NCBI RefSeq assembly: GCF_015351025.1
Contig: NZ_JADKRV010000002.1
Span: 1 to 64,000 of the forward strand
Direction of reading: 5' to 3'
DNA length: 64,000 nucleotides
Origin: Curtobacterium sp. VKM Ac-1376
GTDB taxonomy: Bacteria > Actinomycetota > Actinomycetes > Actinomycetales > Microbacteriaceae
This document shows positions 2,066 to 22,691 of this stretch, piece by piece. The position numbers and the translations under genes are program-made. Position 1 is the first letter of the stretch. Every line of letters starts with the position of its first letter. The notes beneath the pieces were generated by a model. That model was not told where the DNA came from. It saw nothing but the letters and a program-made list of their open reading frames with translations, and did no database searches.

Positions 2066-4318
2066 TTACTCCTGGTGGCCGTTGTGGTGGGCACCGGTCG
2101 ACGGGACCGACTTCTGCACCTGCACCAGGAACTCGACGTTCGACTGCGTCTCCTTGAGGTTCCGCAGCACGATCTCGAGGGCCTGCTGCGGGTCGAGCCC
2201 GGCGAGGGCCCGGCGCAGACGCCAGGTGATCTTGACCTCGTCGGCGGAGAGCAGCTGCTCCTCGCGACGGGTGCCGGAGGCGTTGACGTCGACGGCCGGG
2301 AAGATCCGCTTGTCGGCGAGGTGCCGGTTCAGGCGGAGCTCCATGTTGCCGGTGCCCTTGAACTCCTCGAAGATGACCTCGTCCATCTTGGAACCGGTCT
2401 CGACGAGCGCGGTGGCGAGGATGGTCAGCGAGCCGCCGTCCTCGATGTTGCGCGCCGCGCCGAAGAAGCGCTTCGGCGGGTAGAGCGCCGCGGAGTCGAC
2501 ACCACCGGAGAGCACGCGGCCCGACGGCGGGGTCGACAGGTTGTACGCGCGGCCCAGGCGGGTGATCGAGTCGAGCAGCAGCACGACGTCGTGGCCGAGC
2601 TCCACCAGGCGCTTCGCACGCTCGATGGCGAGCTCGGCGACGGTGGTGTGGTCCTCGGCGGGACGGTCGAAGGTCGAGGCGATGACCTCGCCCTTCACCG
2701 TGCGCTGCATGTCGGTGACCTCTTCGGGCCGCTCGTCGACGAGGACGACCATCAGGTGCGCCTCGGGGTTGTTCTTGGCGACGGCGTTCGCGATGGCCTG
2801 CAGCACGACGGTCTTGCCGGCCTTCGGCGGCGACACGATGAGGCCGCGCTGGCCCTTTCCGATCGGCGACACGAGGTCGATGATGCGGGTCGAGAGCTTG
2901 CCGGGCTCCGTCTCGAGGCGCAGGCGCTCGTTCGGGTACAGCGGGGTGAGGTCGTTGAAGTCGACCCGTGCGGCTGCCTCGTCGGTGGTCTGGCCGTTGA
3001 TGGACTCGACCGTGACGAGCGCGTTGTACTTCTGGCGGCTCTGCTGCTCGCCGTCACGCGGCTGCTTGATCGAACCGACGACCGCGTCGCCCTTGCGGAG
3101 GTGGTACTTCTTCACCTGGCCGAGGGAGACGTAGACGTCGCTCGGTCCGGGCAGGTAGCCGGTGGTGCGCACGAAGGCGTAGTTGTCGAGGACGTCGAGG
3201 ATGCCCGCGATCGGGATCAGGACGTCGTCCTCGGTGACCTCGGGCTCGAAGTCGTCGTTCTGGCCGCCACGACCGCGCTTGCGGTCACGCTGACGACGGC
3301 TGCGGCCGCTCTCCGCCTCGTCGGCGTGCTGCTGTTGCTGCTGCTTCTGCTGGCCGGCGCTCTGCTGCTTCTGCTGGCCGGCGTTCTGCTTCTGCTCGGC
3401 CTTGTCGTCCTGCTTGGCCTCGGCCTGCTTGGCGTCCGCCTGCTTGGCCTCGGCCTGCTTCGGCTGGTCGGCCCCGTTCTGCTTCTGGGCCTGGCCGCCG
3501 TTCTGCTGCGCGCCCTGCTGGCCGTTCTGCTGCGTGTTCTGCTGGCCGGCGGTCTGGTCGCCGCTCTGCTGATCGCCGTTCTCGACGTTCTGCCCACGAC
3601 CACGACCGCGGCCGCGGCTGCGGCGCCCGCGACGCGAGCCGCCCTCACCCTGGTCGCCGGACTCGTTCTGGTCCTGCGCGTCGGACTGGTTCTGCTCGGA
3701 CTGCTCGCCCTGCTCGGCCTGGGCCGACACGGGTGCCTGCTGCTCCGTCTGCTCGGTTGCCTGGGCCTCGTCAGGCTGCTGGCCCTGCTGCTCGGCGTTG
3801 CGCTGGCCACGACCGCGGCGCTGCGAGCCGGACTGCGCGGCTTCCTGGGCGTCCTTCTCGGCGCGGACCTGGTCGAGACCGGCGAGGAGGTCCTCGGTGC
3901 CGGTCTGGCCGTGGTTGGTGTGCTCGGCGGCCGAGGTCGGCGCGGCGTTCACGGTGCCGCCGGACGAGGCGCGACGCGAGCGACGGGCACGCGACGGCGC
4001 GGCCTGCTCGTCGGGGGCCTCGGGCTCGGCGACGGGAGCCTCGGCGGCGGGGTGCTCCGGGGTCTCGGCGGGCTCGGGCAGGGTCGGCTGCGCGGTGACG
4101 GCCGGCTCGGCCGGGGTCTCGGCAGCGGCGGCGGGTGCCGGGGCAGCCGGGGTCTCGTCGACGGGACGCTTGTCCTCGATCGAGGCGATCAGGTCGCCCT
4201 TGCGGAGCTTGGAGAGCCCGGTGATGCCGAGCGAGGAGGCGATGCGCTGGAGTTCCGGGAGACGGAGGGCGCGCAGATCGCTGGGGATCTCCACCTGGGC
4301 GGAGTTGTTGTCGGTCAA
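2066..4318 (-). CDS. rho: transcription termination factor Rho with long disordered insert
   Basis: Rho is a hexameric RNA-dependent ATPase that ends transcription of untranslated RNA. The 750 residues have an N-terminal Rho_N/SAP-like part (about 10-50), a low-complexity insert (about 55-350) rich in Gln, Ala, Glu, Asp and Arg, a cold-shock RNA-binding domain (about 362-440) and the ATPase core. Walker A is PPKAGKT at 497-503 and Walker B is DVVLLLDS at 577-584. The insert carries an RGRRSRGRGRGRG block near 230-242, repeated AKQAE/AKQAD units near 290-305 and a Q-rich run near 315-330. Escherichia coli Rho has 419 residues; long inserts are usual in actinobacteria. The start codon is TTG at 4318, with AAAGGAAA about 10 bases upstream. 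The 179-base leader after thrB may hold an autoregulatory promoter, but I could not place one with confidence. Confidence 0.97.
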   Translation of the reverse strand: MTDNNSAQVEIPSDLRALRLPELQRIASSLGITGLSKLRKGDLIASIEDKRPVDETPAAPAPAAAAETPAEPAVTAQPTLPEPAETPEHPAAEAPVAEPEAPDEQAAPSRARRSRRASSGGTVNAAPTSAAEHTNHGQTGTEDLLAGLDQVRAEKDAQEAAQSGSQRRGRGQRNAEQQGQQPDEAQATEQTEQQAPVSAQAEQGEQSEQNQSDAQDQNESGDQGEGGSRRGRRSRGRGRGRGQNVENGDQQSGDQTAGQQNTQQNGQQGAQQNGGQAQKQNGADQPKQAEAKQADAKQAEAKQDDKAEQKQNAGQQKQQSAGQQKQQQQQHADEAESGRSRRQRDRKRGRGGQNDDFEPEVTEDDVLIPIAGILDVLDNYAFVRTTGYLPGPSDVYVSLGQVKKYHLRKGDAVVGSIKQPRDGEQQSRQKYNALVTVESINGQTTDEAAARVDFNDLTPLYPNERLRLETEPGKLSTRIIDLVSPIGKGQRGLIVSPPKAGKTVVLQAIANAVAKNNPEAHLMVVLVDERPEEVTDMQRTVKGEVIASTFDRPAEDHTTVAELAIERAKRLVELGHDVVLLLDSITRLGRAYNLSTPPSGRVLSGGVDSAALYPPKRFFGAARNIEDGGSLTILATALVETGSKMDEVIFEEFKGTGNMELRLNRHLADKRIFPAVDVNASGTRREEQLLSADEVKITWRLRRALAGLDPQQALEIVLRNLKETQSNVEFLVQVQKSVPSTGAHHNGHQE

Positions 4319-4450
4319 GGTCGGTGTTTCCTTTCGAACCGCAGAACGCGGAGAGTTTCCACCGTCCCGGATGCAGGGAGCATCGACCGCCGTTCAGACG
4401 ACGGATCGGGATTCGGTGATCAGAAAGAGATGCACACCCGCGCACCGGAC

Positions 4451-4466
4451 CCTGCGACGTCGCAGG
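4451..4466 (-). terminator. palindrome after thrB, possible terminator
   Basis: A perfect 16-base palindrome CCTGCGACGTCGCAGG begins about 32 bases after the thrB stop codon and lies in the leader of rho. As RNA it would form a 6-bp stem with an ACGT loop. There is no T-run behind it, so it could be a weak terminator, a rho-leader regulatory hairpin or a protein site. Confidence 0.35.
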
Positions 4467-4497
4467 AGCTGTCCATGAGGACGGGCAATCCGTACGG

Positions 4498-5517
4498 TTA
4501 CGCGGGTTCGGCTTCGAGCGCCGAGTGCGCCCCAACTGTAGCACCACCGAGATCGACGGCCAGCATGAGCGGCCGCCAGTCGGAATCGGCGTGTCGCTGC
4601 ACGAGGTCCGCGGCCGTGAGCCGCTGTGCCGGGTCGCTGCCGAGCACCAGCAGGCTGGGACCGGCACCCGAGACGACGGCGGCCAGCCCGTGCTGGCGGA
4701 GCAGGCGGATCAGGGCGTCGGTCTCCGGCATGGCGCTGGCGCGGTACGCCTGGTGCAGACGGTCCTCGGTCGCGGCGAGCAGGAGCTCGGGGCTCTGGAT
4801 GAGCGCGGCGACGAGGAGCGCCGACCGCGAGACGTTGAACGCGGCGTCCGCGTGCGGCACCTGCTCGGGCTGCAGGGAGCGCGCGAGCTTCGTGGAGAGC
4901 GTCGAGGTCGGCACGAACACCACCGGCGCGACACCGCGGTGCACGAGCAGGCGCTTGTAGGCCGGGCCGTCGGCGGTCATCCACGCGATCGTGAGGCCGC
5001 CGAAGAGCGCGGGGGCGACGTTGTCCGGGTGCCCCTCCATCTCGGTGGCCAGGGTGAGGAGCGTCGAGGCGTCGAGGTCGACGATGCCCTCGAGCAGCCC
5101 GCGAGCCGCCATCAGGCCGGCGACGATCGCCGCGGCCGACGACCCGAGACCGCGACCGTGCGGGATCGCGTTCGTGGCGTGCAGCTCGAGCCCGGGCTGC
5201 TGCACCCCGGCGTGCTCGAGGCCACGCCGGACGGCGCGGACGACCAGGTTCGAGTCGTCCGTGGCGACCTCACCTGCACCGACGCCGTCGACCGTGACGG
5301 TCGCGCCGGGTTCGGGGCGCACGCGCACCGTCACCTCGTCGTAGAGCGACAGCGCGAGGCCCAGGGAGTCGAAGCCGGGACCGAGGTTCGCGGACGTGGC
5401 CGGCACGCGGACGCGGACCGCCCGCCCCGCCGGTACCGCGCGGACCGCCCGTCCGGCCGGTACAGCGCTGCGGGCGGTGACGCCCTCCCCCGGTCTGGAC
5501 GAGCGGCCGACGCTCAC
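4498..5517 (-). CDS. thrB: homoserine kinase
   Basis: ThrB phosphorylates homoserine with ATP, giving O-phosphohomoserine for ThrC. It is a GHMP kinase: the N-terminal motif [16 protein letters not shown] and the phosphate-binding loop GRGLGSSAA are both visible. The GTG start at 5517 overlaps the thrC stop (GTGA), which decides the start and shows translational coupling. The protein is 339 residues, about 30 longer than usual, because the stretch before the first conserved strand contains a 27-base tandem duplication (5414-5467) that repeats [12 protein letters not shown] codons further in could also be used. It is the last threonine gene before the rho leader. Confidence 0.96.
5414..5467. 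repeat. 27-bp tandem duplication inside thrB
   Basis: Two head-to-tail 27-base copies (5414-5440 and 5441-5467) differ at 3 positions and encode two nine-residue units of the PAGRAVRA type before the catalytic fold of ThrB begins. The unit is a multiple of three, so the frame is kept. Confidence 0.85.
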
Positions 5518-8042: not shown

Positions 8043-9464
8043 TCAGCGGCCGGTGCCGTCGAACGGTGCGGCGGCGACGCCGGTGTCACGGGCGAGGAGG
8101 TCGTCGATCGTCTCGCCCCGCACGAGGATACGGGCTGTGCCGTCCGCGACGGCGACGACGGGCGGACGCCCCACGTGGTTGTAGTTGCTCGCCAGCGACC
8201 AGCAGTAGGCCCCGGTGGCGGCGACGGCGAGCAGGTCGCCGCGCTGCACGTCACCGGGCAGGTACTCGTCGTTCACCACGACGTCACCGCTCTCGCAGTG
8301 CTTGCCGACGACGCGGCTCAGGACCGCCGGGGCATCGGATGCACGGGCGAGCCGCGCCGTGTAGTCGGCGCCGTACAGGGCGGGACGGATGTTGTCACTC
8401 ATGCCGCCGTCGACGGAGACGTAGGTGCGGGTCGCGCTGCCGCCGTCGTCGGTCTCGAGCGTCACGGGCTTGATCGTGCCCACGCGGTACAGGGTGAGCC
8501 CGGGCGGGCCGATGATGTAGCGCCCCGGCTCGACGGCGATGTCCGGCACCGGGATCCCCCGCTCAGCGCAGGCGTCGCCGATGATCGCGGCGAGGGCGTC
8601 GGCGACGTCCTCGGGGGCGAAGGCCGAGTCGGCCTCGGTGTAGTCGATCCCCCAGCCGCCGCCGAGGTTGAGCTCGGGCACCGGGCCGGACGCCACGAGG
8701 GTCGCGTGCACGTCCATCAGTCGCCGCGCGGCCTCGCGGAAGCCGGCGTCGTCGAAGATCTGCGAACCGATGTGCGAGTGCAGCCCGACGAAGGCCAGTG
8801 ACGGCTCGGCACGGACGGCCTCGGCGGCGGCGACGGCCTCGGCGAGCGGGATGCCGAACTTCTGGTCCTCGCGCGCGGTCGCCAGGTACTCGTGGGTCGA
8901 GGCGTGCACCCCGGTGTTGATGCGGATGCGCACCCGCTGCACGACTCCGGCGTCGGCCGCGGCACGAGCGACGCGCTGGACCTCTTCGTGGCTGTCGAGC
9001 ACGATCGTGCCGATGCCGGCCTCGACCGCGCGGGCGATCTCGGCGTCGGACTTGTCGTTGCCGTGGAACCCGAGCCGACCCGGGTCGATGCCGCCGGCCA
9101 GGGCGACGGCGAGCTCACCGGCGGTGCAGACGTCGACGCGGAGGTCCGCCTCGGCCATCCACGCCACGACCTGGGTCGTCAGGAAGGCCTTGCCGGCGTA
9201 GTACACGTGCGCGTGGCTGCCGATGCGCTCGAAGGCCTCGGCGAACGCGTTCCGGACGCGAACGGCGCGGGACTGCACGTCGCGCTCGTCGATGACGTAC
9301 AGCGGGGTGCCGAACTGCGCGACGAGGTCGGTCGCGCTGACACCGCCGACCGCCAGGGTGCCGTCGTCGGTCCGCGTCGCGGACGCAGGCCAGATGCGGT
9401 CCACCAGTTCGGAGGCGTCCGTCGGGAACCGCAGCCGGGGCGGTGCAAGGGGGTTCTCGCTCAC
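8043..9464 (-). CDS. lysA: diaminopimelate decarboxylase
   Basis: LysA decarboxylates meso-diaminopimelate to lysine, the last step of lysine synthesis. It is an alanine-racemase-fold PLP enzyme: the PLP lysine is K92 in YYAGKAFL, the phosphate-binding loop is GGGWGIDY, and CESGDVV with the C-terminal AYCWSLASNYN supply the other active-site half across the dimer. The 473 residues include an N-terminal extension of about 40. The GTG start at 9464 lies 8 bases behind a TAGGAT box, so the mRNA is probably leaderless. It heads lysA-hom-thrC-thrB. In other actinobacteria argS is directly upstream; here an LmeA-like gene lies between. Confidence 0.97.
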   Translation of the reverse strand: MSENPLAPPRLRFPTDASELVDRIWPASATRTDDGTLAVGGVSATDLVAQFGTPLYVIDERDVQSRAVRVRNAFAEAFERIGSHAHVYYAGKAFLTTQVVAWMAEADLRVDVCTAGELAVALAGGIDPGRLGFHGNDKSDAEIARAVEAGIGTIVLDSHEEVQRVARAAADAGVVQRVRIRINTGVHASTHEYLATAREDQKFGIPLAEAVAAAEAVRAEPSLAFVGLHSHIGSQIFDDAGFREAARRLMDVHATLVASGPVPELNLGGGWGIDYTEADSAFAPEDVADALAAIIGDACAERGIPVPDIAVEPGRYIIGPPGLTLYRVGTIKPVTLETDDGGSATRTYVSVDGGMSDNIRPALYGADYTARLARASDAPAVLSRVVGKHCESGDVVVNDEYLPGDVQRGDLLAVAATGAYCWSLASNYNHVGRPPVVAVADGTARILVRGETIDDLLARDTGVAAAPFDGTGR

Positions 9465-12157: not shown

Positions 12158-12727
12158 ATGACCCCCCGCAGCCGTGCCCGGGCGCTCGCCGTCGCCACCG
12201 TCGCCACCGCCGCAGCCCTCGTGCTCGCCGGGTGCTCGGGCGGCGGAGACAGCGCTCCGTCGGCCAGCGCGACGCCCGCCGGCAAGCCGGTGTCGGAGAC
12301 CTGCGCCGAACTCCTGCCGGCGAGCGCACTGACGGTGTACGGGCAGTCCTTCGAACTCGACGACTCCTTCACTCCGGCGAAGGGTTCCCCCGCCGCCACC
12401 ATCGCGAAGCAGCGGGGCCGCGTCTGCCGGTTCGTGAGCACCGACACGGACGCCACGACCATCACGCTCGCCGTCGCCGACCTGCCTGAGAAGTCGCTCA
12501 CCAACCTGAAGGACGCCCTGTACGAGCGCGGCGGCTCCGTCCCGACTTACCGGGTGGAGGGGTACTTCGCCCTGGGCGACGGGGTCGGTCGCGCGGATGC
12601 GTTCACCGACCCGTACTGGATCACCGCGCAGTCGACGCTGTTCACCGAACCGGGTGGGGCGCAGCCCGTCGTCGACACGGTGCGGGCCGCGCTGCAGCCG
12701 TCGGCGTCGGCGACGCCCGCCGGCTGA
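12158..12727 (+). CDS. predicted lipoprotein of unknown function
   Basis: A secreted lipoprotein of 189 residues: an Arg-rich start, a hydrophobic stretch and the lipobox LAGC, with the cysteine near residue 26. After a Ser/Ala/Thr/Pro linker the domain has two further cysteines (SETCAEL and RVCRFV), which could pair. I do not recognise the domain. The linker word SASATPAG recurs as the last residues of the protein. An in-frame ATG at 12140 would add 6 residues; the ATG at 12158 puts the charged region right before the hydrophobic core and is preferred. It is divergent from argS and stands alone before the tRNA gene. Confidence 0.85.
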
Positions 12728-12856
12728 CGCGGCACCCTGCGGCCGGGCGCGCGCGGCGGCCCGCCGTCCGGTGCGAGGTTCCGCACGTGGTGCGCTGCTC
12801 GCAACGCAGCACGGAACACGGAACCCCGCACGGGAACGCGACGTCGGCACGGTGCG

Positions 12857-12900
12857 GACGGGAGGCGCGGGGCGGGCCCGCACCGCGCCTCCCGGCCGTC
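12857..12900. repeat. dispersed inverted repeat, copy 1
   Basis: Left arm GACGGGAGGCGCGG and right arm CCGCGCCTCCCGGCCGTC pair over about 15 bases around a GC-rich loop. The same arms recur at 37791, 47134, 58293 and 62548, always between genes. This copy lies between the lipoprotein gene and tRNA-Arg and would work as a factor-independent terminator. The rest of the 249-base gap holds no convincing gene. Confidence 0.7.
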
Positions 12901-12955
12901 CGTGCCCGCGTCCACGGCGCGACACGCGCTGTCCAGGACCACCCGCCGGACCTGC

Positions 12956-12961
12956 TACGGT
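12956..12961 (+). promoter_or_regulatory. possible -10 box of tRNA-Arg
   Basis: TACGGT 16 bases before the first base of the tRNA gene. It fits TANNNT, but no good -35 box is seen. Confidence 0.35.
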
Positions 12962-12976
12962 TGTTGACACCCCTTG

Positions 12977-13048
12977 GCCCCCATAGCTCAGGGGATAGAG
13001 CACTGCCCTCCGGAGGCAGGGGCGGAGGTTCGAATCCTCCTGGGGGCA
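12977..13048 (+). tRNA. tRNA-Arg, anticodon CCG
   Basis: A complete cloverleaf. The 7-bp acceptor stem is GCCCCCA with TGGGGGC, the D arm GCTC with GAGC, the anticodon stem CTGCC with GGCAG around the loop CTCCGGA, and the T stem GGAGG with CCTCC around TTCGAAT; A is the discriminator. The anticodon CCG reads CGG arginine codons. CCA is not encoded. No integrase or duplicated 3' end is nearby, so it does not look like an occupied integration site. Confidence 0.95.
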
Positions 13049-13105
13049 CTGTCACATTGCCGCGCAAGCAGTTGTCTTCGCTTTGCCCAGTCAGCTGCGC
13101 GCGAT

Positions 13106-13120
13106 GTCGCCTGCGGCGAC
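13106..13120 (+). terminator. hairpin after tRNA-Arg
   Basis: GTCGCC and GGCGAC with a TGC loop, followed by CTTCCCTCGT, 58 bases after the tRNA. The 289-base gap from 13049 to 13337 is less GC-rich than its surroundings, has this hairpin and a small CACTC/GAGTG repeat near 13170, and no gene that I can support. Confidence 0.4.
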
Positions 13121-13290
13121 CTTCCCTCGTCGAGACTCCTCCGGGTGGGTCGCCAGCCTCGTGGGCGATCGCACTCGTCGAGTGAGCGGAAGACGACGGG
13201 TCGGCGTGAGGGCCACGGCGTGTCCTGCTCACTCGCTCGTCGCCGTCGCCCGCGCTCCCGCGTGTTTCCGAGCCGGACACCTGGGTCCCC

Positions 13291-13296
13291 TAGGAT
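13291..13296 (+). promoter_or_regulatory. -10 box of the synthetase gene
   Basis: TAGGAT 42 bases before the ATG at 13338, which would give a short leader. It is the same hexamer as in front of argS and lysA. Confidence 0.4.
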
Positions 13297-13337
13297 CACG
13301 GGCCGGTCGTCCCGCACACGACCGGGAAGAGGCTCCG

Positions 13338-16300
13338 ATGACCACCGGCACCGCGAACGCGCAGCTCGAACTCGCCCGCAGCGGGCACGCCCCCTCCGCA
13401 CGGACGCTGTTCGACGTCCTCTCGGCCACCGCGGCGGCCCATCCGGACGCCACCGCGCTCGAGGACTCCGCCGGCACCGTCGACTACGCCACCATGCTCG
13501 ATCTCGTTCGCGCGCAGGCCGACGACCTCGCCCGCCGCGGTGTCCGACGGGGCGCCCGGGTCGGTGTGCGGATCCCCTCCGGCGGCCGGGACCTGTACCT
13601 GTCGATCCTCGCCGTCCTCGCCGCCGGCGCCGCCTACGTGCCCGTCGACGCGGACGACCCCGAGGAGCGTGCCACCCTGGTGTTCGGCGAGGCGGGCGTC
13701 GTCGGCGTGATCGGCGCGGGCGGCGTCCTGCGGAACCGTGACGGCGCCGAGCTCCCGGTGAGGGACCCCGCGGCGAGCGCCGAACTCCCCCGCGAGACCG
13801 ACGACGCGTGGATCATCTTCACGTCCGGGTCCACCGGGGTGCCGAAGGGGGTCGCGGTGACGCACCGGTCGGCCGCGGCGTTCGTGGACGCCGAGGCGCG
13901 GATGTTCCTGCAGGCGGCGCCGATCGGTCCGGGCGACCGGGTGCTGGCGGGGCTGAGTGTGGCGTTCGACGCGTCGTGCGAGGAGATGTGGTTGGCGTGG
14001 GGGCACGGTGCCGCGCTGGTGCCGGCGCCCCGGTCGCTGGTCCGGACCGGGGCGGATCTGGGGCCGTGGCTCATCGCGCACACGATCACGGTCGTGTCGA
14101 CGGTGCCGACGCTCGCGGCGCTGTGGCCCGACGATGCGCTGGAGCAGGTACGGCTGGTCATCTTCGGTGGCGAGGCGTGCCCGCCGGAACTGGCGGCGCG
14201 CATCGCGAGCCGTGACCGCGAGGTGTGGAACACGTACGGTCCGACCGAGGCGACGGTGGTGGCCTGCGGGTCCCTGCTCGACGGGAGCCAGCCGATCCGG
14301 ATCGGGCTGCCGTTGGACGGCTGGGACCTGGCGGTCGTGGACGCCGCGGGCCGGCGGGTCGATCCTGGTGGGGTCGGTGAGCTGGTGATCGGCGGTGTCG
14401 GACTGGGGCGGTACCTGGACCCGGCGAAGGACGCGGAGAAGTACGCGCCGTTCCCGGAGCTCGGGTGGGACCGGGCGTACCGGAGCGGGGACCTGGTGCG
14501 GTACGAGCCCGAGGGGCTGGTGTTCCAGGGTCGTGCGGACGACCAGGTGAAGCTCGGTGGTCGCCGGATCGAACTCGGGGAGATCGACGCGGCGTTGCAG
14601 GCGCTGGACGACGTCGCCGGTGGGGCTGCCGTGGTGCAGCGGACGCCGGCGGGCAACCAGGTGCTGGTCGGGTACGTGGCCCCGGTGGCGGGGGCGACGG
14701 TGGACGTGGCGGCGGCGAACGCCCGGCTGCGTCAGGAGCTGCCGGCGGCGCTGGTGCCGCTGGTCGCGGTGGTCGAGTCGCTGCCGACGCGGACGTCGGG
14801 CAAGGTGGACCGTGCCGCGCTGCCGTGGCCGTTGCCCGGGGCGTCGGACGCGGCGATGCTGCCGGACACCGTGGCGTGGATCGCGGAACGGTGGTCGGCG
14901 ATCCTCGGGGTGCCGGTGGCGAGCGTCGACGACGACTTCTTCGCGCACGGGGGTGGGTCGCTGACGGCGGCGCAGCTGGTGTCGGCGATCCGAGAGCGTT
15001 TCCCTACGACGACCGTCGCCGACGTCTACGACCACCCGCGCATCGGGGCTCTGGCCGACGCGCTGGACGAGTCCGGACCGGTGGTGGCGTCGTCGCGGGA
15101 CGTGACGCCGGTCCCCCCGGCGACCGGGCTGCTGATGACGCTGCTCGGGTTGCCGGTGCAGGTGGTGCGGGGCCTGCGGGTCCTGACGTGGACGGCGCTG
15201 GTGGCTGCGGTCCTGCACGTGACGACGCTGCCGTTCCTGCCGGTGCTCCCGTGGCCGGCCCTGGTGGTCGCCCTGCTGGTCTTCGTGACGCCGATCGGCA
15301 AGATGGCGCTCACGGTGGTCCTCGCTCGGCTGCTGCTCGCCGGGGTCCGTCCGGGTGACCATCCCCGCGGGGGCGCGGTGCACCTGCGGGTCTGGCTGGC
15401 CGAGCGGATCGCCGAGGCCGTCGACGGCCCCTCGACCGCCGGTGCCCCGTGGATCAGCTACTACGCCCGGGCACTGGGGGCACGGATCGGCAAGGACGTC
15501 GACCTGCACACGCTCCCCCCGGTGACGGGCATGCTCACCATCGGCAAGCGGGCATCGATCGAGCCGGAGGTCGACCTCGCCGGCCACTGGCTGGACGGCG
15601 ACGTCTTCCACCTGGGCCACGTGCGCATCGACGATGACGCCGTGGTGCGGAGCCGCACCGCGCTGCTGCCGGGAGCGCACGTCGGCGCGGGCGCCGAGAT
15701 CACCGCCGGCTCGGCCGTCGGCGGCCCGGTGCCGGCGGGTGAACGGTGGGCCGGAGCGCCGGCGGCACGCGTCGGGTCGGCGCGCGGCGACCGGGAGGCC
15801 CGTCCCCCGGCCCGTCGCCGCTGGCTGCTGGCGTACGGGGCCGGGTCCCTGGCCGTGGCCGGGTTGCCGGTGGTCGGTGTCGCGGTCGGACTGCTGGTCG
15901 CGGTCGCCCTGGTCGGCCGGGCGTCGACCCTGGGCGACGCGGTGTTCGGTGCGCTGGTGACGGTCCCCCTGGCGACGGTCGTCGCCGGTGCGGTGTACGC
16001 GCTGCTGGTGGTGGTCGCGGTGCGGCTGCTCGGGATCGGCCTGCACGAGGGGCGGCACCCGGTGCGCTCCCGGATCGGCTGGCAGGTGTGGTCGACCGAG
16101 CGCGTCCTCGACGCGGCTCGCACCCTGTTGTTCCCGCTGTACGCCTCGCTCGTCACGCCGGTGTGGTTGCGGCTGCTCGGTGCCCGGGTCGGTCGGGACA
16201 CCGAGATCTCCACGGTGCTGCTCATCCCGGCGCTGACGCAGATCGCGTCGGGGGCGTTCCTGGCCGACGATACGATGGTGGCGACGTACGAGCTCGGCGG

Positions 16301-17213
16301 TGGTCGGGTGCGGATCGGCCGGTCGAAGGTGGGGCGTCGGGCGTTCCTCGGCAACAGCGGCATGACGGGCGCCGGACGTTCGGTGCCGCGTGAGGCCCTG
16401 GTGGCAGTGCTGTCCGCGGTGCCGAAGAAGGCCAAGCGCGGGTCGTCGTGGCTCGGGTCGCCCCCGGTGCGGCTGCGGCGTGCGGCGACGGAGTTCGACG
16501 AGGCGCGCACGTTCCGTCCGTCGCGGCGGCTGAAGGTCGCCCGCGGCTGCTGGGAGCTGCTGCGCCTGGTCGCCCCGATGGTCTCCGCCGCCATCGCGCT
16601 CGGCGTGGCCGGTGCGCTCTTGGCGCTGTGGTCGGCCGTCGGGATCGGGTGGACCGTGCTGCTCGCGGGCCCGGTGCTCATCGCCGCCGGAGCCGTCGCC
16701 GCCGTGGTGTCGACGATCGCGAAGTGGGCGTTCGTCGGCCGGATCACCGCCCGCGAGCACCCGCTGTGGTCGTCCTTCGTGTGGCGCAACGAGGTGCAGG
16801 ACACCTTCGTCGAGACCGTCGCCCGCCCCTGGTTCGCCGAGCAGGCCACCGGCACTCCTGCACTGGCCGTCTGGCTGCGGAGCCTCGGCGCGACGATCGG
16901 CCGTGGCACCTGGCTCGAGACGTACTGGTTGCCCGAGGCCGACCTGGTCACGATCGGGTCCGGCGCCTCGGTGGCGCGCGGCACCGTCGTGCAGACGCAC
17001 CTGTTCCACGACCGGGTGATGCAGCTCGACACCGTCCGGCTCGACGCGGGCGCGACGCTGGGCCCGCACAGCGTGGTCCTGCCCGCCGCCGGCATCGGTA
17101 CCGGAGCCACCGTCGGGCCGTCCTCGCTCGTGATGCGTGGTGAGCAGGTGCCGCCGGGGTCGCGGTGGTCGGGCAACCCGATCGCTCCGTGGACAGCCGT
17201 ACCGGCCCCATGA
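13338..17213 (+). CDS. Pls/PosA-type single-module nonribosomal peptide synthetase
   Basis: A 1,291-residue membrane enzyme laid out like epsilon-poly-L-lysine synthetase, which joins one amino acid many times. Residues 20-500 are an adenylation domain: P-loop [11 protein letters not shown] at 161-171, [10 protein letters not shown] with D211, [10 protein letters not shown] near 298, YRSGDLVRY near 381, and [13 protein letters not shown] with catalytic K489. A carrier domain follows with [14 protein letters not shown], the phosphopantetheine serine being S541. Then come about six membrane helices (around 618-633, 636-652, 838-858, 872-898, 1080-1100, 1104-1125) alternating with three hexapeptide-repeat-like domains (705-810, 930-1020, 1170-1285), the tandem C-domains of Pls. 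There is no condensation or thioesterase domain. The first pocket residue is Asp (D211) and the residue at the usual Trp position is E215, which could suit a basic side chain; the real substrate (lysine, ornithine, diaminobutyrate or other) cannot be told here. An M1 peptidase overlaps its end and a phosphopantetheinyl transferase lies 2.4 kb on. The start follows GAAGAGG. Confidence 0.9.
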
Positions 17214-18556
17214 GGTTGACTGTCCCCGTGCCGACCGATCCTGCCGCCGACCCGTACACCCCGCACAGCGGCGACCGACGCTGGAGCGCAGAGCACTACG
17301 ACCTGCGCCTGGACTACCGCGTCGCCACGAACCGCCTGGACGCCACGGCGACGATCACCGCGCGCGCCCACGAGCCGCTCGACCGGATCGTGGTCGACCT
17401 GCACGGCCTGTCGGTGGACCGGGTCGACGTGGACGGACGCCGGGCGAAGAAGGTGTCGACGGCCACGCACAAGGTCACCGTGACCCCGGCCGACCCGATC
17501 GCCGCCGGCACCGTGTTCAGCGTGCACCTGAAGTACCGCGGCACCCCGCACCCGGTGCGGAGCCCCTGGGGGCAGCTCGGGTGGGAGGAACTGTCCGACG
17601 GCGTCATCGTCGCGGCGCAGCCGACCGGGGCGCCCTCGTGGTTCCCCTGCAACGACCGCCCGGATGACAAGGCCACCTACCGGTTCGAGATCGCCACCGA
17701 GGCCGCGTACGACGTCGTGGCGAACGGCGAGCTGCTCGCCAAGGAGCGTGACCGGGCCGGTACCCGCTGGACCTACGCCACCACCGAGCCGATGGCGACG
17801 TACCTCGCGACGGTGCAGATCGGCCGCTACCGCAGCACGAAGCTCCACTCCGGTGGCGTGCCCGTCACGCTGCACCACCCCGCCGACCTCACCGCGGCCG
17901 CGAAGACCGACTTCGGTCAGGTGCCCGAGATGCTCGCGCTGTTCGACGATCGGTTCGGCCCGTACCCGTTCGCGGCCTACGGGGTCGTGGTGACCGACGA
18001 CGAGCTCGAGATCCCGCTCGAGGCCCACGGCCTGGCGGTGTTCGGACGCAACCACGTCGACGGCGAGCACGGCACCGACCGGCTCATCGCCCACGAGCTG
18101 GCGCACCAGTGGTTCGGCAACTCGGTGACCGCCGCCCGCTGGCAGGACATCTGGCTGCACGAGGGCTTCGCCTGCTACGCGGAGTGGCTGTGGTCCGAGG
18201 AGCGCGGGGACGACACCGCCGATGCCCTCGCCGAGCGACACCGACAGGGTCTGCTCGACCAACCGGAGGACCTGGTCGTCGGCGACCCCGGCGCGAAGGA
18301 CATGTTCGACGACCGCGTGTACAAGCGCGGCGCACTCGCCCTGCACGCCCTCCGCCGCACCGTCGGTGACGACGCCTTCTTCACCGGGCTGCGGAGCATC
18401 ACCGAGCGGCACCGGCACGGTTCGGTGACGGTGCCGGACGTGCTCGGCGCCTTCGCGGACGCCACCGGCCGTTCCGTCGCGGACGTCCGTGCGGTGACCG
18501 GCCCCTGGATCGACGAGGCATCGGTGCCGGCACTGCCCGTGCCGGACGCCGCCTAG
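17210..18556 (+). CDS. short M1-family zinc aminopeptidase
   Basis: A 448-residue metallopeptidase. The zinc site is complete: HELAH with H295 and H299 and the third ligand E318 in LHEGFACYAEW. The N-terminal half is the beta-sandwich domain and the catalytic domain ends soon after; the long helical C-terminal part of PepN (about 850 residues in all) is absent, which defines the short M1 subgroup. The substrate loop that is GAMEN in PepN reads LEAHG here. There is no signal peptide, so it is probably cytoplasmic. The ATG at 17210 overlaps the synthetase stop (ATGA), so the two genes are coupled. It may trim or degrade small peptides; a link to the synthetase product is inference from position. 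Confidence 0.92.
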   Translation: MRLTVPVPTDPAADPYTPHSGDRRWSAEHYDLRLDYRVATNRLDATATITARAHEPLDRIVVDLHGLSVDRVDVDGRRAKKVSTATHKVTVTPADPIAAGTVFSVHLKYRGTPHPVRSPWGQLGWEELSDGVIVAAQPTGAPSWFPCNDRPDDKATYRFEIATEAAYDVVANGELLAKERDRAGTRWTYATTEPMATYLATVQIGRYRSTKLHSGGVPVTLHHPADLTAAAKTDFGQVPEMLALFDDRFGPYPFAAYGVVVTDDELEIPLEAHGLAVFGRNHVDGEHGTDRLIAHELAHQWFGNSVTAARWQDIWLHEGFACYAEWLWSEERGDDTADALAERHRQGLLDQPEDLVVGDPGAKDMFDDRVYKRGALALHALRRTVGDDAFFTGLRSITERHRHGSVTVPDVLGAFADATGRSVADVRAVTGPWIDEASVPALPVPDAA

Positions 18557-18574
18557 CGTGCTCCGTCGCCTCGG

Positions 18575-18850
18575 TTAGCCCGCCAGCTCGCCGTCGACCG
18601 GGTCGCAGCTGACCTCGGTCCACACCGCGTCGAGGGACAGCCCGACCACCCCGGCGACCGAGGCGATCGTCGAGAACGCCGGCGTCGCGATCCGACCGGT
18701 CTCGATCTTCCGGAGCGTCTCCGGCGAGATGCCGGCGGCCAGGGCGGTGTCGACGATCGACCGCGGCCCGCGGGTACGGCGGAGGAGAGCACCGAGGCGA
18801 CGGCCGCGGGCGACCTCGTCGGGACGGAGCGGGAGACGGACCATGGCCAC
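18575..18850 (-). CDS. XRE-family transcriptional regulator
   Basis: A 91-residue protein with a single helix-turn-helix domain covering most of its length (RTRGPRSIVDTALAAGI, then SPETLRKIETGRIATPAF). Its GTG start at 18850 is 14 bases from the start of the divergent aminopeptidase gene, with a perfect palindrome between, so it probably controls that gene and itself. An ATG two codons in (18844) is an alternative. It converges on the M1 gene, leaving 18 bases between. Confidence 0.88.
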   Translation of the reverse strand: MAMVRLPLRPDEVARGRRLGALLRRTRGPRSIVDTALAAGISPETLRKIETGRIATPAFSTIASVAGVVGLSLDAVWTEVSCDPVDGELAG

Positions 18851-18856
18851 ATAGTA

Positions 18857-18866
18857 ATACCGGTAT
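18857..18866. promoter_or_regulatory. palindromic operator between XRE regulator and map
   Basis: ATACCGGTAT, a perfect 10-base palindrome in an AT-rich patch (ATAGTAATACCGGTATGAT) in very GC-rich DNA. It overlaps the map start codon and lies 7 bases from the regulator start, so a bound regulator would block both. A TAGTAAT stretch just upstream could serve as a -10 box for map. Confidence 0.5.
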
Positions 18867-19644
18867 GATCATCCGCGTGATCGAGATCCTGACCCCGGCC
18901 GAAGTCGAGAAGGCCCGTGCCACCGGTGCCCTGGTCGGCACGATCCTGCAGACCCTCCGCGAGCGCGCCCGCGTCGGCACGAACCTGCTCGAGATCGACC
19001 GGTGGGCCCGCGAGATGATCGAGGCCGCCGGCGCCGACTCCTGCTACGTCGACTACGCACCCTCGTTCGGCCGGGGCCGCTTCGGCCACCACATCTGCAC
19101 CGCCGTGAACGACGCCGTGCTGCACGGGCTCCCGCACGACCGGGTGCTGGCGGACGGCGACCTGCTGACCCTCGACCTCGCGGTGTCGCTCGACGGCATC
19201 GCCGCGGACGCCGCCGTCAGCTTCGTCGTCGGCGCCCCGCGCCCCGAGGACCTCGCCCTCATCGACGCGACCGAACGCGCCCTCGCCGCCGGCATCGCCG
19301 CCGCCGGACCCGGCGCCCGGATCGGAGACCTGTCGCATGCGATCGGCACCGTGCTCGACGCCGCGGGCTACCCCGTGAACGTCGAGTTCGGCGGACACGG
19401 CATCGGGTCGACCATGCACCAGGACCCGCACGTGTCGAACACCGGACGACCGGGCCGCGGGTACACACTGCGGCCGGGGCTCATGCTCGCGCTCGAGCCG
19501 TGGGTCATGGCGGACACCGACGTCCTGGTCACAGACGCCGACGGCTGGACCCTGCGGAGCGCCACCGGGGCACGGACCGCACACACGGAGCACACCATCG
19601 CGATCACCGAGGACGGCGCGGAGGTGCTCACGCTCCCCCGCTGA
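18865..19644 (+). CDS. map: type I methionine aminopeptidase
   Basis: Removes the starting methionine from new proteins. All metal ligands of the family are visible: D104 and D115 in LTLDLAVSLDGIAADAAV, H178 in GGHGIGSTMHQDP, E211 in LALEPWV and E242 in HTEHTI, plus the substrate-side H87 in VLHGLP. The length of 259 residues is normal and there is no N-terminal zinc extension. The ATG at 18865 sits inside the palindrome and there is no ribosome binding site, so the mRNA may be leaderless; a GTG four codons in is an alternative. Actinobacteria usually have a second map in the ribosomal or secY region, so this is probably a paralogue under local control. Its 3' end overlaps the convergent transferase gene by 17 bases. 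Confidence 0.93.
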   Translation: MIIRVIEILTPAEVEKARATGALVGTILQTLRERARVGTNLLEIDRWAREMIEAAGADSCYVDYAPSFGRGRFGHHICTAVNDAVLHGLPHDRVLADGDLLTLDLAVSLDGIAADAAVSFVVGAPRPEDLALIDATERALAAGIAAAGPGARIGDLSHAIGTVLDAAGYPVNVEFGGHGIGSTMHQDPHVSNTGRPGRGYTLRPGLMLALEPWVMADTDVLVTDADGWTLRSATGARTAHTEHTIAITEDGAEVLTLPR

Positions 19645-20206
19645 TCACTCCGCCCGTCCCTCCGCCCCTCGATCCGGTGACCCGCACCGCCGCGCCGCCG
19701 GCCGCGACCACGAGCACGAGGTCCGGTCCGGGTCGCAGGACGGTCAGGGGCTGGACGGCGTCCTCGAACCACGCTGTTCCTGCGGCGACCTCGACGTCGA
19801 CGTCGAGGGGGTCCACCCGGAGCCCCCGGCCGTCGCGCTTCAGCACGGCCTCCTTGGCGGCCCACGTGGCGGCGAGGACGGTCGGGTCCCCGGCGGCACG
19901 ACGGAGTTCTCCGGCCGTGAACGCGTCGAGGGGCGCTGCGGCGACACGGGACACCCGCTCGACGTCGACCCCGAGGGGTCCGGGGCCGACCGCGATCGCG
20001 ACGACGCCCGGTGCGCGCGACAGGCTCACCCCCACGGCGGCGCCGGACACGCTCGCCCACGGACGGCCGTGGTCGGTCCCCGCGCAGTGCGGACAGACGC
20101 GCCCCGCGCGCACGGCCGACGTCTCGACACGGGTGGCCGACGCGACGGCGGCGACCAGGGCCTCCCGGTCGGCCGCGCGGTCAGGACCCGGCGTGCGCAG
20201 CGTCAC
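19628..20206 (-). CDS. 4'-phosphopantetheinyl transferase (Sfp type)
   Basis: Moves the phosphopantetheine arm of coenzyme A to a serine of carrier domains. Motifs are LGVDVERV (magnesium ligands D81 and E83) and WAAKEAVLK (115-123), with an early CPHCAGTDHGRPW that is common in actinobacterial members. At 192 residues it is slightly shorter than Sfp. The GTG at 20206 is the start. It is the likely activator of S541 in the synthetase encoded 2.4 kb away, though it may also serve other carrier proteins. A CTGGAGGCGCG half-element of the dispersed repeat lies just upstream (20217-20227). Confidence 0.9.
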   Translation of the reverse strand: MTLRTPGPDRAADREALVAAVASATRVETSAVRAGRVCPHCAGTDHGRPWASVSGAAVGVSLSRAPGVVAIAVGPGPLGVDVERVSRVAAAPLDAFTAGELRRAAGDPTVLAATWAAKEAVLKRDGRGLRVDPLDVDVEVAAGTAWFEDAVQPLTVLRPGPDLVLVVAAGGAAVRVTGSRGGGTGGVISGGA

Positions 20207-20278
20207 CAGGACGGTCTGGAGGCGCGGCGCAGCATCCGGGGTGGCCCCCGTCGGTGCCGTGGTCGCGCGCAGGGCGGA

Positions 20279-20482
20279 TCAGGCGTGCGTCAGCGCGATC
20301 AGCGCGACGTTCATGGTGCTGTAGAGCCCCTCGGAGCGGGTCGCCTGGCGAACCCGTCCGCGCAGGACCTCGTAGCGTCCGTCGTGCTCGTGCACGAAGC
20401 CGATCACACCCGTCGCCGGTGTCGACACCCGGTGGTAGCCGTCCTCGAGCGGGACGACCTCGGTGCTGGTGGTGCGTTCCAT
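20279..20482 (-). CDS. small protein of unknown function (67 residues)
   Basis: The ATG at 20482 has a strong binding site (AAGGGGAAG, 5 bases upstream) and opens a 67-residue frame. It has the look of a compact beta-strand protein, with DGYHRVSTPATGVIGFVHEH followed by RYEVLRGRVR, and no membrane helix or signal. I recognise no family. A further ATG 7 codons upstream overlaps the binding site and is less likely. It lies 72 bases upstream of the transferase gene on the same strand and is divergent from the TPM-domain gene. Confidence 0.65.
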   Translation of the reverse strand: MERTTSTEVVPLEDGYHRVSTPATGVIGFVHEHDGRYEVLRGRVRQATRSEGLYSTMNVALIALTHA

Positions 20483-20610
20483 CGTTCTTCCCCTTCCGTT
20501 CATCCTCGAACAGTGGCGCCAGCATACCCCGGTTGGGGGACAAGGCGTCCACAGCATCGACGGTCCCCAGCGTTCCCCGGGAGTCTGTCCGAACGCCCGC
20601 GGGGCCTGGA

Positions 20611-20616
20611 TAGACT
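20611..20616 (+). promoter_or_regulatory. possible -10 box of the TPM-pspA unit
   Basis: TAGACT within GGATAGACTCC, 75 bases before the ATG at 20691. It fits TANNNT; no clear -35 box. Confidence 0.3.
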
Positions 20617-20690
20617 CCGGGCGACAGCGCTCTCGTGGCGCGGTCCGGGGCGGTGCCACGGGGTACCGACCGGCGACGGACGGAGGACGG

Positions 20691-22691
20691 ATGCGAGCGG
20701 TCCAGCACGGATCGGGCACGGACGGATCGAGCGGGCACAGGGGGACAACGCGGCTGTGGAGCCGCGCGACGGCGGCCCTGGTCGCGATGCTGATCGTCCT
20801 GGCTCCGGCAGCGACCGCCCGCGCCACGGCGCCCGTCGACCTGGGCGGCGCGTACGTCCTCGACGAGGCCGGCGTGCTCAGTTCGTCGGAACAGGCGCAG
20901 GTCGAGCAGGCCGTGCAGGACCTCTACTCCGAGACCCAGACCCAGCTCTTCGTCGTCTTCGTGCCCTCGTTCACCGACCCCGGCGACCACACCGAGTGGG
21001 GCGGGGCCGTGCTCGAGCAGAACCAGATCGACACCGACGGGATCCTGCTCTCGGTCGCCGTCGACGAGCGCAACTACGACGTGCAGCAGACGAACGAGAC
21101 CGCCATCTCCGAGTCCGACGTGCAGAACGCGGTGAACGACGCCCTGCTCCCCGAGCTCAAGCAGAGCGACTGGTCCGGCGCCGCTGTCGCGTTCGCCGAC
21201 GGGCTGACACAGTCGCAGGCCCCGGTGGACCTCACCTGGCTGTGGATCCTGCTGCTCGTCGTGGTCGTCGGGCTGATCGTCGTCGTCCTGGTCGTCCGCA
21301 CCCGCAACAAGCGCCGCACCGCAGCGGCCACCCGGGCGCAGGAAGCCTCGCTCGCCGACCTCGAACGCACCGCCGGCGGCGCGCTCGTCACCATCGACGA
21401 CGAGCTCCGTACCGCCGAGCAAGAGGTCGGGTTCGCGAGCGCGCAGTTCGGCCCCGACGCCGCCAAGCCCTTCGCCGACGCCGTGCAGGCCGCGCAGCGC
21501 GAGGTCCGCAAGGCCTTCACGATCCGCCAGCAGCTCGACGACGAGATCCCGGACTCCCCACAGCAGCGTGCCGAGTGGGCCGACCAGATCATCGCGATCT
21601 GCGAGCGAGCCCACGCCGCGATCGAGGAGCAGACCGAGGCGTTCGACCAGCTCCGCTCGCTCGAGGACGGCGTCGAGGACGCCGCCGCGTCGCTCGCCCA
21701 GGCCGTGGCCGCCGCACCGGCATCGGTCGGTGCCGCTGCGGCCGCCCTCGACCGCGTCCGCGCCCGGTACACCGGCCGGACGCTCGCGACGGTCGCCGAC
21801 AACGTCGACCAGGCACATCAGGTGCTCGCCTACGCGACCGAACGCTCGAACGCCGCGACCGCGTCCATCGCCGCCGGCGAGAAGGGCGAGGCCGTCGTGG
21901 CCGTGCGGGACGCCCAGCACGCCCTCGCGCAGGTGCAGCAGCTCACCGACGGCGCCCTCGCCGCCGAGAACTCCTTCACCGAGGCGACAGCCCGCGCCGA
22001 GGCGATGCGCATCGACATCGAGGGCGACGTCGCCGCCGCCCGCACCCTGCGCGCCAGCGGCCCGGACCTCGCCGCGGCGGTGACCCGTGCTGAGGCCGTG
22101 CTGCGGCAGGGCCTCGACCCGAAGGACCCCGTCGCGGCCGTCGACGCCCTGACCCGCGCGAACACCGAGATCGACCAGGCGATCGCCGCCGCGCGCGGTG
22201 CCGAGGAGCAGCGCCGACGAGCCGCCAAGGCCATCGACGAGGCCCTGCGGGACGCCCGCACGCGGATCAGCCAGGCCCGCGACTACATCTCACTGCACCG
22301 CGGTGCCATCGGCCCCACCGCACGCACACGGTTGTCCGAGGCCGAGCGCGCCTTCGACGATGCCGTGCACTTCGCCGCCACCGATCCCGGGCAGGCGCTC
22401 AACGCGGCCCGCGCGGCCGAGCAGTACGCCGCAGCAGCGATGGACGCCGCGAACGACGACCTGGGCGGCTGGGGCGGCCAGAGCGGCGGCGGGGGCGGCG
22501 GCGCGCAGCTGGGCGGGCTCGTCACCGGCATCGTCCTCGGCGGACTGCTCGGGGGTCGCGGCGGCAGCTTCGGCGGGGGCTCCTTCGGGGGCGGCGGCTT
22601 CGGCGGAGGCGGCGGCTTCTCCGGCGGTGGCGGCTTCGGCGGGGGCGGGGGCGGGGGCGGCGGCGGCTTCTCCGGCGGCGGCCGCTTCTGA
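20691..22691 (+). CDS. TPM-domain membrane protein with coiled coil and glycine-rich tail
   Basis: A 666-residue envelope protein. Residues 1-47 hold a signal sequence, and about 50-175 a TPM domain (AYVLDEAGVLSSSEQAQVEQ, then TQTQLFVVFVPSF), known from photosystem repair proteins and some phosphatases. A membrane helix at about 181-203 is followed by roughly 380 residues of Ala/Glu/Arg-rich coiled coil. The last 65 residues are nearly all Gly, Ser and Phe in GGGGFGGG-type repeats ending GGGRF. Such glycine tails are common in TPM proteins and may self-associate. It is followed after 78 bases by pspA, a recurring pair that suggests membrane stress repair. GGAGGACGG precedes the ATG at 20691 and fixes the start. 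Confidence 0.88.
   Translation: MRAVQHGSGTDGSSGHRGTTRLWSRATAALVAMLIVLAPAATARATAPVDLGGAYVLDEAGVLSSSEQAQVEQAVQDLYSETQTQLFVVFVPSFTDPGDHTEWGGAVLEQNQIDTDGILLSVAVDERNYDVQQTNETAISESDVQNAVNDALLPELKQSDWSGAAVAFADGLTQSQAPVDLTWLWILLLVVVVGLIVVVLVVRTRNKRRTAAATRAQEASLADLERTAGGALVTIDDELRTAEQEVGFASAQFGPDAAKPFADAVQAAQREVRKAFTIRQQLDDEIPDSPQQRAEWADQIIAICERAHAAIEEQTEAFDQLRSLEDGVEDAAASLAQAVAAAPASVGAAAAALDRVRARYTGRTLATVADNVDQAHQVLAYATERSNAATASIAAGEKGEAVVAVRDAQHALAQVQQLTDGALAAENSFTEATARAEAMRIDIEGDVAAARTLRASGPDLAAAVTRAEAVLRQGLDPKDPVAAVDALTRANTEIDQAIAAARGAEEQRRRAAKAIDEALRDARTRISQARDYISLHRGAIGPTARTRLSEAERAFDDAVHFAATDPGQALNAARAAEQYAAAAMDAANDDLGGWGGQSGGGGGGAQLGGLVTGIVLGGLLGGRGGSFGGGSFGGGGFGGGGGFSGGGGFGGGGGGGGGGFSGGGRF

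Follow-up and report, generated by a model that had tools for sequence, protein, structure and literature searches.

We analysed a 64,000-nucleotide stretch of the genome of Curtobacterium sp. VKM Ac-1376 (positions 1 to 64,000 of contig NZ_JADKRV010000002.1, assembly GCF_015351025.1, 3.77 Mb in 61 contigs), which we refer to as the window. It contains pls, a gene for a synthetase of the epsilon-poly-L-lysine type, followed by a gene for a pldII-like M1 zinc metallopeptidase (M1) and, convergent with these two, by a gene of the 4'-phosphopantetheinyl transferase superfamily (Table 1). Some bacteria build short antimicrobial lysine chains and cut them again. For comparison we collected 80 loci matching the window synthetase, 32 of Curtobacterium type and 48 others, together with 8 plasmid stretches carrying relatives of Pls; the 80 loci share ancestry, and the counts given below are therefore non-independent.

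Table 1. Features of the pls locus and its surroundings, in window coordinates.
Feature	Position	Strand	Remarks
lysA	8043-9464		near pls in the window
tRNA-Arg(ccg)	12977..13049	+	288 bp before pls; marks the chromosomal site, outside the system
pls, epsilon-poly-L-lysine synthetase-type	13338..17213	+	1,291 aa; adenylation (A) domain ~22-500, carrier (T) domain ~514-576, three units of transmembrane (TM) pair plus beta-helix ~594-1280; Pfam, TIGR02353, 7wew match, AlphaFold model
Codons of pls residues 211-215 (D211, A212, E215)	13968..13982	+	first three pocket-code positions
pldII-like M1 zinc metallopeptidase gene	17210..18556	+	448 aa, two-domain; Pfam, NCBIfam, alignment
M24 type-I methionine aminopeptidase (MAP) paralogue	18865..19644	+	between M1 and transferase; membership in the system doubtful
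4'-phosphopantetheinyl transferase superfamily gene	19628..20206	-	192 aa; convergent with pls-M1

A preliminary description of this DNA had proposed a Pls-type enzyme with adenylation and carrier domains and neither condensation nor thioesterase domain, and the profile searches bear this out. In the pls product Pfam recognizes AMP-binding at residues 30-356 and PP-binding at 514-576, the carrier serine being Ser541 (in GGGSL), and gives no match to a condensation or thioesterase domain, while a Hexapep match stays below its cut-off. The NCBIfam profile TIGR02353 ('Pls/PosA family non-ribosomal peptide synthetase') aligns over residues 605-1282 (profile 8-695 of 695) with 686.9 bits against a cut-off of 423.1, and the top sequence match in the PDB is 7wew, the A domain of an epsilon-poly-L-lysine synthase (E 4e-187, 628 bits), followed by a gramicidin synthetase at 388 bits. 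Judged by its sequence, the protein is a full-length Pls-type synthetase.

Among the best 60 of 151 PDB matches the aligned stretches stop by residue 579, and none is a solved relative of the membrane part. Since none of the solved relatives shown covered that part, where hydrophobic stretches lie at ~615-670, ~830-904 and ~1073-1133, we predicted it instead with AlphaFold (residues 590-1291; input of 25 aligned sequences, the window and 24 of the 80 loci). The model, with a mean predicted local distance difference test (pLDDT) score of 83.6 and a predicted template modelling (pTM) score of 0.86, has three pairs of long helices (5-40 and 50-60/63-77; 238-270 and 276-285/287-310; 474-512 and 514-544, in model numbering) with a beta-helix domain after each pair. 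A Foldseek search of the PDB at E <= 0.001 returned 9 matches, 6 of them hexapeptide-type acetyltransferases and 3 designed proteins, all local, with target TM-scores of 0.28-0.54. The prediction thus comprises six membrane helices along with a tandem of three acetyltransferase-like domains, much as had been read by eye, and the model agrees with the published Pls layout of C1-C3 plus TM1-TM6 (PMC8117764). Relatives lacking the tandem C-terminal domains were looked for and not found.

The substrate pocket was read at ten positions (residues 211, 212, 215, 254, 275, 277, 299, 307, 308 and 489), which give the code DAESIGTVVK. All ten residues match 7wew, to which the A domain as a whole is 64.9% identical (315/485). 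The pocket columns were set by known A-domain motifs, with an Acinetobacter baumannii protein (L122) as control, and under the same column map this protein yields DMEHNGTVSK, the published code of the delta-poly-L-ornithine synthetase PosA (PMC10522769). Mutants of PosA at the Asp of position 1 and the Glu of position 3 are reported as inactive, and position 2, an Ala in lysine enzymes, is reported to set substrate length (PMC10522769). In the window enzyme position 2 is Ala212, and the D211 and E215 singled out earlier do fill positions 1 and 3. Given these PosA findings and a code equal to that of 7wew, L-lysine is the expected substrate, which goes further than the basic amino acid first proposed. 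Codes for a neutral amino acid, for ornithine, for diaminopropionate (Dap) or for diaminobutyrate (Dab) were looked for and not found, and we rejected a non-lysine substrate because the pocket is that of the lysine enzyme. The same code occurs in 75 of the 80 related loci (counted by elimination from the printed groups); a Val at position 5 is the sole difference in four (L049, L056, L061 and L103), and one locus with a broken reading frame (L062) stands outside the count.

The M1 gene starts inside the stop of pls, as had been noticed, through a 4-nt overlap (ATGA at 17210-17213). Its product carries both M1 domains in Pfam (Peptidase_M1, 102.9 bits; cut-off 27.7) and the motif HELAH (295-299) with Glu318 and Tyr371, and its closest solved relatives are the 474-residue zinc metalloproteases 6a8z and 6iff. 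Residues H295, E296, H299, E318 and Y371 are unchanged in 82/82 aligned M1 sequences, comprising the window, 78 of the 80 loci and 3 plasmid records; we left out L042, in which the contig cuts the gene, and L110, whose contig ends inside pls and has no M1. Counting the shortened gene of L042, M1 follows pls in 79 of the 80 loci, the exception being that contig end, and the genome holds one further Peptidase_M1 place. The preliminary description had left open whether the enzyme degrades the product or is there by chance; the 79 loci rule out chance, and degradation fits the known PldII. The pls and pldII genes of Streptomyces albulus form an operon and share 4 nt (PMC4361855), pldII being described as a 1404-bp open reading frame (ORF) translationally coupled to pls (PMC9223678). 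In Streptomyces sp. NBC_01454, where the A domain of Pls has 81.6% identity to 7wew, an M1 metallopeptidase gene of 1404 bp overlaps pls by 4 nt.

The transferase ORF passes the Pfam ACPS family (PF01648) with 34.0 bits against a cut-off of 25. We sought its homologues with a profile grown from the window ORF in the related loci, 78/80 of which extend more than 1.5 kb past M1, and found one in 66 of the 80, across 13 named genera; in 45 of the 66 it faces M1 directly in convergent orientation, no more than 700 bp away. It is present in 30/32 Curtobacterium-type, 16/17 Microbacterium and 2/6 Leifsonia loci, in every locus of ten genera with one or two loci (Plantibacter, Arsenicicoccus, Rathayibacter, Frigoribacterium, Terrabacter, Rhodoglobus, Sinomonas, Agrococcus, Agromyces and Amnibacterium), and in three loci from metagenome-assembled genomes; in the two Frigoribacterium loci it precedes pls and is on the + strand. 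Nocardia (0/5, one locus cut short), Kribbella (0/1) and Lacisediminihabitans (0/1) gave no hit, and neither did the 8 plasmid stretches or the pls stretches of Streptomyces and Kitasatospora (L118, L119 and L124), which differ in this from the window. The genome has three ACPS-family places in all, two besides the window gene, and the chance that any one gene has such a place no farther off than 7 kb is about 1% (3 places in 3.77 Mb). Because of this low expectation and the 66 loci, the linkage is real and the proximity not accidental, and a role as Pls's own helper enzyme is plausible. The literature passages on Pls systems that we consulted make no mention of a pls-linked transferase.

Other neighbours are less constant. 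The M24 gene is found in 18/32 Curtobacterium-type loci and 0/48 others, and the genome holds four type-I MAP matches over cut-off, for which reasons we rejected it as a core component; it is missing from 14 Curtobacterium-type loci, of which one is truncated where its contig stops and 12 of the remaining 13 have the transferase directly next to M1. Upstream, argS-lysA is a housekeeping neighbourhood. Lysine supply through lysA was considered, and we make no functional claim for it, as in the set of 80 it is the Curtobacterium-type and Plantibacter loci alone that have lysA or argS in the vicinity of pls. In both Plantibacter loci (L070, L086) the pls-M1-transferase block stands beside tRNA-Arg(ccg) and argS-lysA in inverted orientation relative to the window, which suggests that the block was either inverted or inserted more than once at this site. 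A search for conserved neighbours gave six clusters in at least four genera, namely three of transferase, two of transport genes and one that is likely a spurious frame, under a strict filter on GC content at third codon positions (GC3) that passed 827 of the 4,667 ORFs and would overlook numerous genuine genes.

The synthetase is widespread in the genus. TIGR02353 exceeds its cut-off in 34 of 36 Curtobacterium genomes, our own included, and the two genomes without it are 73% and 65% complete; in all 33 genomes that are at least 90% complete the region passes and has no internal stop. Outside the genus it was found in 7/23 genomes of the same order and in 1/14 control genomes. The closest named loci are from Curtobacterium flaccumfaciens (96%, best segment) and from other Curtobacterium. 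In one named assembly, Curtobacterium sp. Leaf183 (L062, ~4103-4887), the pls frame is broken near residue 263, within the A domain, reflecting either a pseudogene or a sequencing error.

Some further synthetases were seen along the way. Plasmids of Mycobacterium avium and M. intracellulare carry Pls-type synthetases that are 57.7% identical to the query across 98% of its length. A plasmid of Streptomyces sp. NBC_00648 (L125, 5001-8756) encodes a Pls-like synthetase with the pocket code DSECYGGVTK, which one study gives for a Bdellovibrionales protein and calls uncharacterised (PMC10522769). Hypothetical genes come after it, three of which are close to one another in length (1365, 1365 and 1383 bp), and the synthetase may make an unknown polymer. 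A second protein resembling a non-ribosomal peptide synthetase (NRPS) lies elsewhere in the genome of the window (L114, 664-3186, - strand; contig C10 near 48 kb), with adenylation, carrier (matched) and thioesterase-like parts in a layout read by eye; no condensation domain was matched anywhere in this genome.

Several described systems resemble the window locus. It shares with S. albulus pls-pldII the order A-T-(TM pair + C domain)x3, the 7wew-type lysine pocket and the 4-nt peptidase overlap, and differs in chromosomal place; the divergence from Streptomyces Pls, 53-54% identity overall, was measured on L118 and L119 and not on S. albulus. As in the window, a peptidase gene adjoins pls in Corynebacterium variabile and other coryneforms, whose pockets, in genera including Microbacterium, are reported as identical or highly similar to those of confirmed Pls; the Results of that survey do not list Curtobacterium, and neither Results nor Discussion mentions transferase linkage (PMC8117764). 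An epsilon-poly-L-lysine (epsilon-PL) cluster with A, T, six TM and C1-C3 is described for Agrococcus phoenicis, Microbacterium canaveralium, M. jepli and Leifsonia virtsii, genera found among our related loci, and in the parts of that report available to us it is not reported for Curtobacterium phoenicis (PMC12067966). Another paper assigns an 'NRPS-like' cluster to a Curtobacterium isolate and NAPAA to two isolates of Microbacterium (PMC10456417). In the literature covered, with most subscription journals outside the search, we found no report of epsilon-polylysine production by Curtobacterium.

We consider it very probable that the locus is the pls-pldII operon of Curtobacterium, encoding a lysine polymer synthetase and its hydrolase. 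The domain layout, the lysine-type pocket, the overlap, the M1 catalytic residues and the linkage were computed here, and substrate use, polymer chemistry and the degradation role are extrapolated from characterised relatives. The A domain would adenylate L-lysine and transfer it to the phosphopantetheine arm on Ser541 of the T domain, where it would be bound as a thioester; the convergent transferase probably attaches this arm. Lysines would then be linked through their epsilon-amino groups by the membrane-embedded C-terminal part, with no need of condensation or thioesterase domains, the three beta-helix (acetyltransferase-fold) domains, each behind a membrane-helix pair, acting as the joining part. 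The product would be a short epsilon-poly-L-lysine, which the M1 metallopeptidase would hydrolyse, protecting the producer, limiting chain length, or both.

A number of observations weigh against this interpretation. That PldII of S. albulus is an M1 enzyme is itself deduced, indirectly, from operon position, overlap and length, and a published homology model of PldII puts two zinc ions at D44, T45, D173 and K174, which is not an M1 site (PMC9223678). The window M1 lacks a hydrophobic N-terminal stretch, although PldII is reported to lie outside the membrane (PMC9223678), and is only 42-47% identical to the M1 neighbours of two Streptomyces and one Kitasatospora. Nor is M1 beside pls universal, because the fetched stretches of three plasmids (Rhodococcus opacus pROB01, Streptomyces viridifaciens pKVP2 and Streptantibioticus cattleyicolor pSCAT) gave no M1 match. 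The transferase scores 23.9 bits with TIGR00556, below the cut-off of 45.35, for which reason we assign it by sequence to the superfamily and make no claim that it is of Sfp type; the 'Sfp-type transferase' of the preliminary description stands as a nearby ACPS-superfamily gene, not as to type. Finally, the homologue from the pls-peptidase operon of C. variabile did yield epsilon-PL on expression in S. coelicolor, which speaks for our reading, but neither C. variabile itself nor C. glutamicum made any from this gene (PMC8117764), so that our cluster, too, may be silent.

Such silence, or use of the system for a purpose other than antimicrobial action, is one alternative. The operon would be intact and no free epsilon-polylysine would accumulate, which is compatible with the enzymatic part of the scheme above. 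Proteomics of the native C. variabile culture detected no Pls protein, in keeping with the missing product (PMC8117764), and our scan of 12700-20700 found no promoter or terminator, a consensus sigma-70 promoter included, in a scan that is weak for actinobacteria and uninformative at this GC content. The intact synthetases of the 33 near-complete genomes suggest selection for use, however, and we hold silence to be somewhat unlikely. We would give a similar, minority chance to a variant of our reading in which M1 mainly sets chain length, by trimming or maturation, rather than protecting the cell: repression of pldII in S. albulus led to chains above 40 residues, but the same repression lowered tolerance and caused lysis (PMC9223678), so that both roles may hold.

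The linked transferase could be unrelated to pls and serve other carrier proteins, such as the A-T-TE-like (adenylation-carrier-thioesterase) protein on contig C10. The genome does have four PP-binding places (pls included) besides the two other ACPS-family places, and the genera and plasmids whose pls loci lack the transferase point the same way; against this, the transferase accompanies pls in most loci and genera, whereas the argS/lysA flanks are confined to Curtobacterium-type and Plantibacter loci, and we regard the idea as unlikely. Far less probable still is another cationic homopolymer, of ornithine, diaminobutyrate, diaminopropionate or beta-lysine. The overall layout is common to those enzymes (PMC8117764, PMC10522769), and a substrate read from a pocket is a prediction. 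Yet the pocket equals that of the lysine enzyme and differs both from that of PosA and from those of the poly-Dap and poly-Dab enzymes (PDAP/PDAB), which have Phe at position 2 (PMC10522769); moreover, overall identity is 31% to A. baumannii L122 against the 53-54% with Streptomyces. PosA has the domain layout in common with the window enzyme, as well as Asp at code position 1 and Glu at position 3 (PMC10522769); no M1 match was seen in the fetched L122 stretch.

Returning to the pls-pldII operon, its architecture, organisation and function are already published for relatives, and the locus adds a clear but unremarkable case to a known family; the modest additions are the genus-wide occurrence in Curtobacterium and the conserved linked transferase, neither of which came up in our literature searches. 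Curtobacterium is a largely plant-associated genus. We tentatively propose, with rather less than even confidence, that Microbacteriaceae and some neighbouring families carry a self-contained module of three genes (synthetase, M1 hydrolase and dedicated transferase), core in Curtobacterium, whose polymer would be a regular part of plant-surface chemistry. Our analysis places a probable epsilon-polylysine producer in Curtobacterium, a genus whose members seem to share the synthetase as a core gene. For heterologous production the linked transferase would make a useful partner gene. Should the polymer be made, the finding would have a bearing on self-resistance and on how these bacteria compete on plants.

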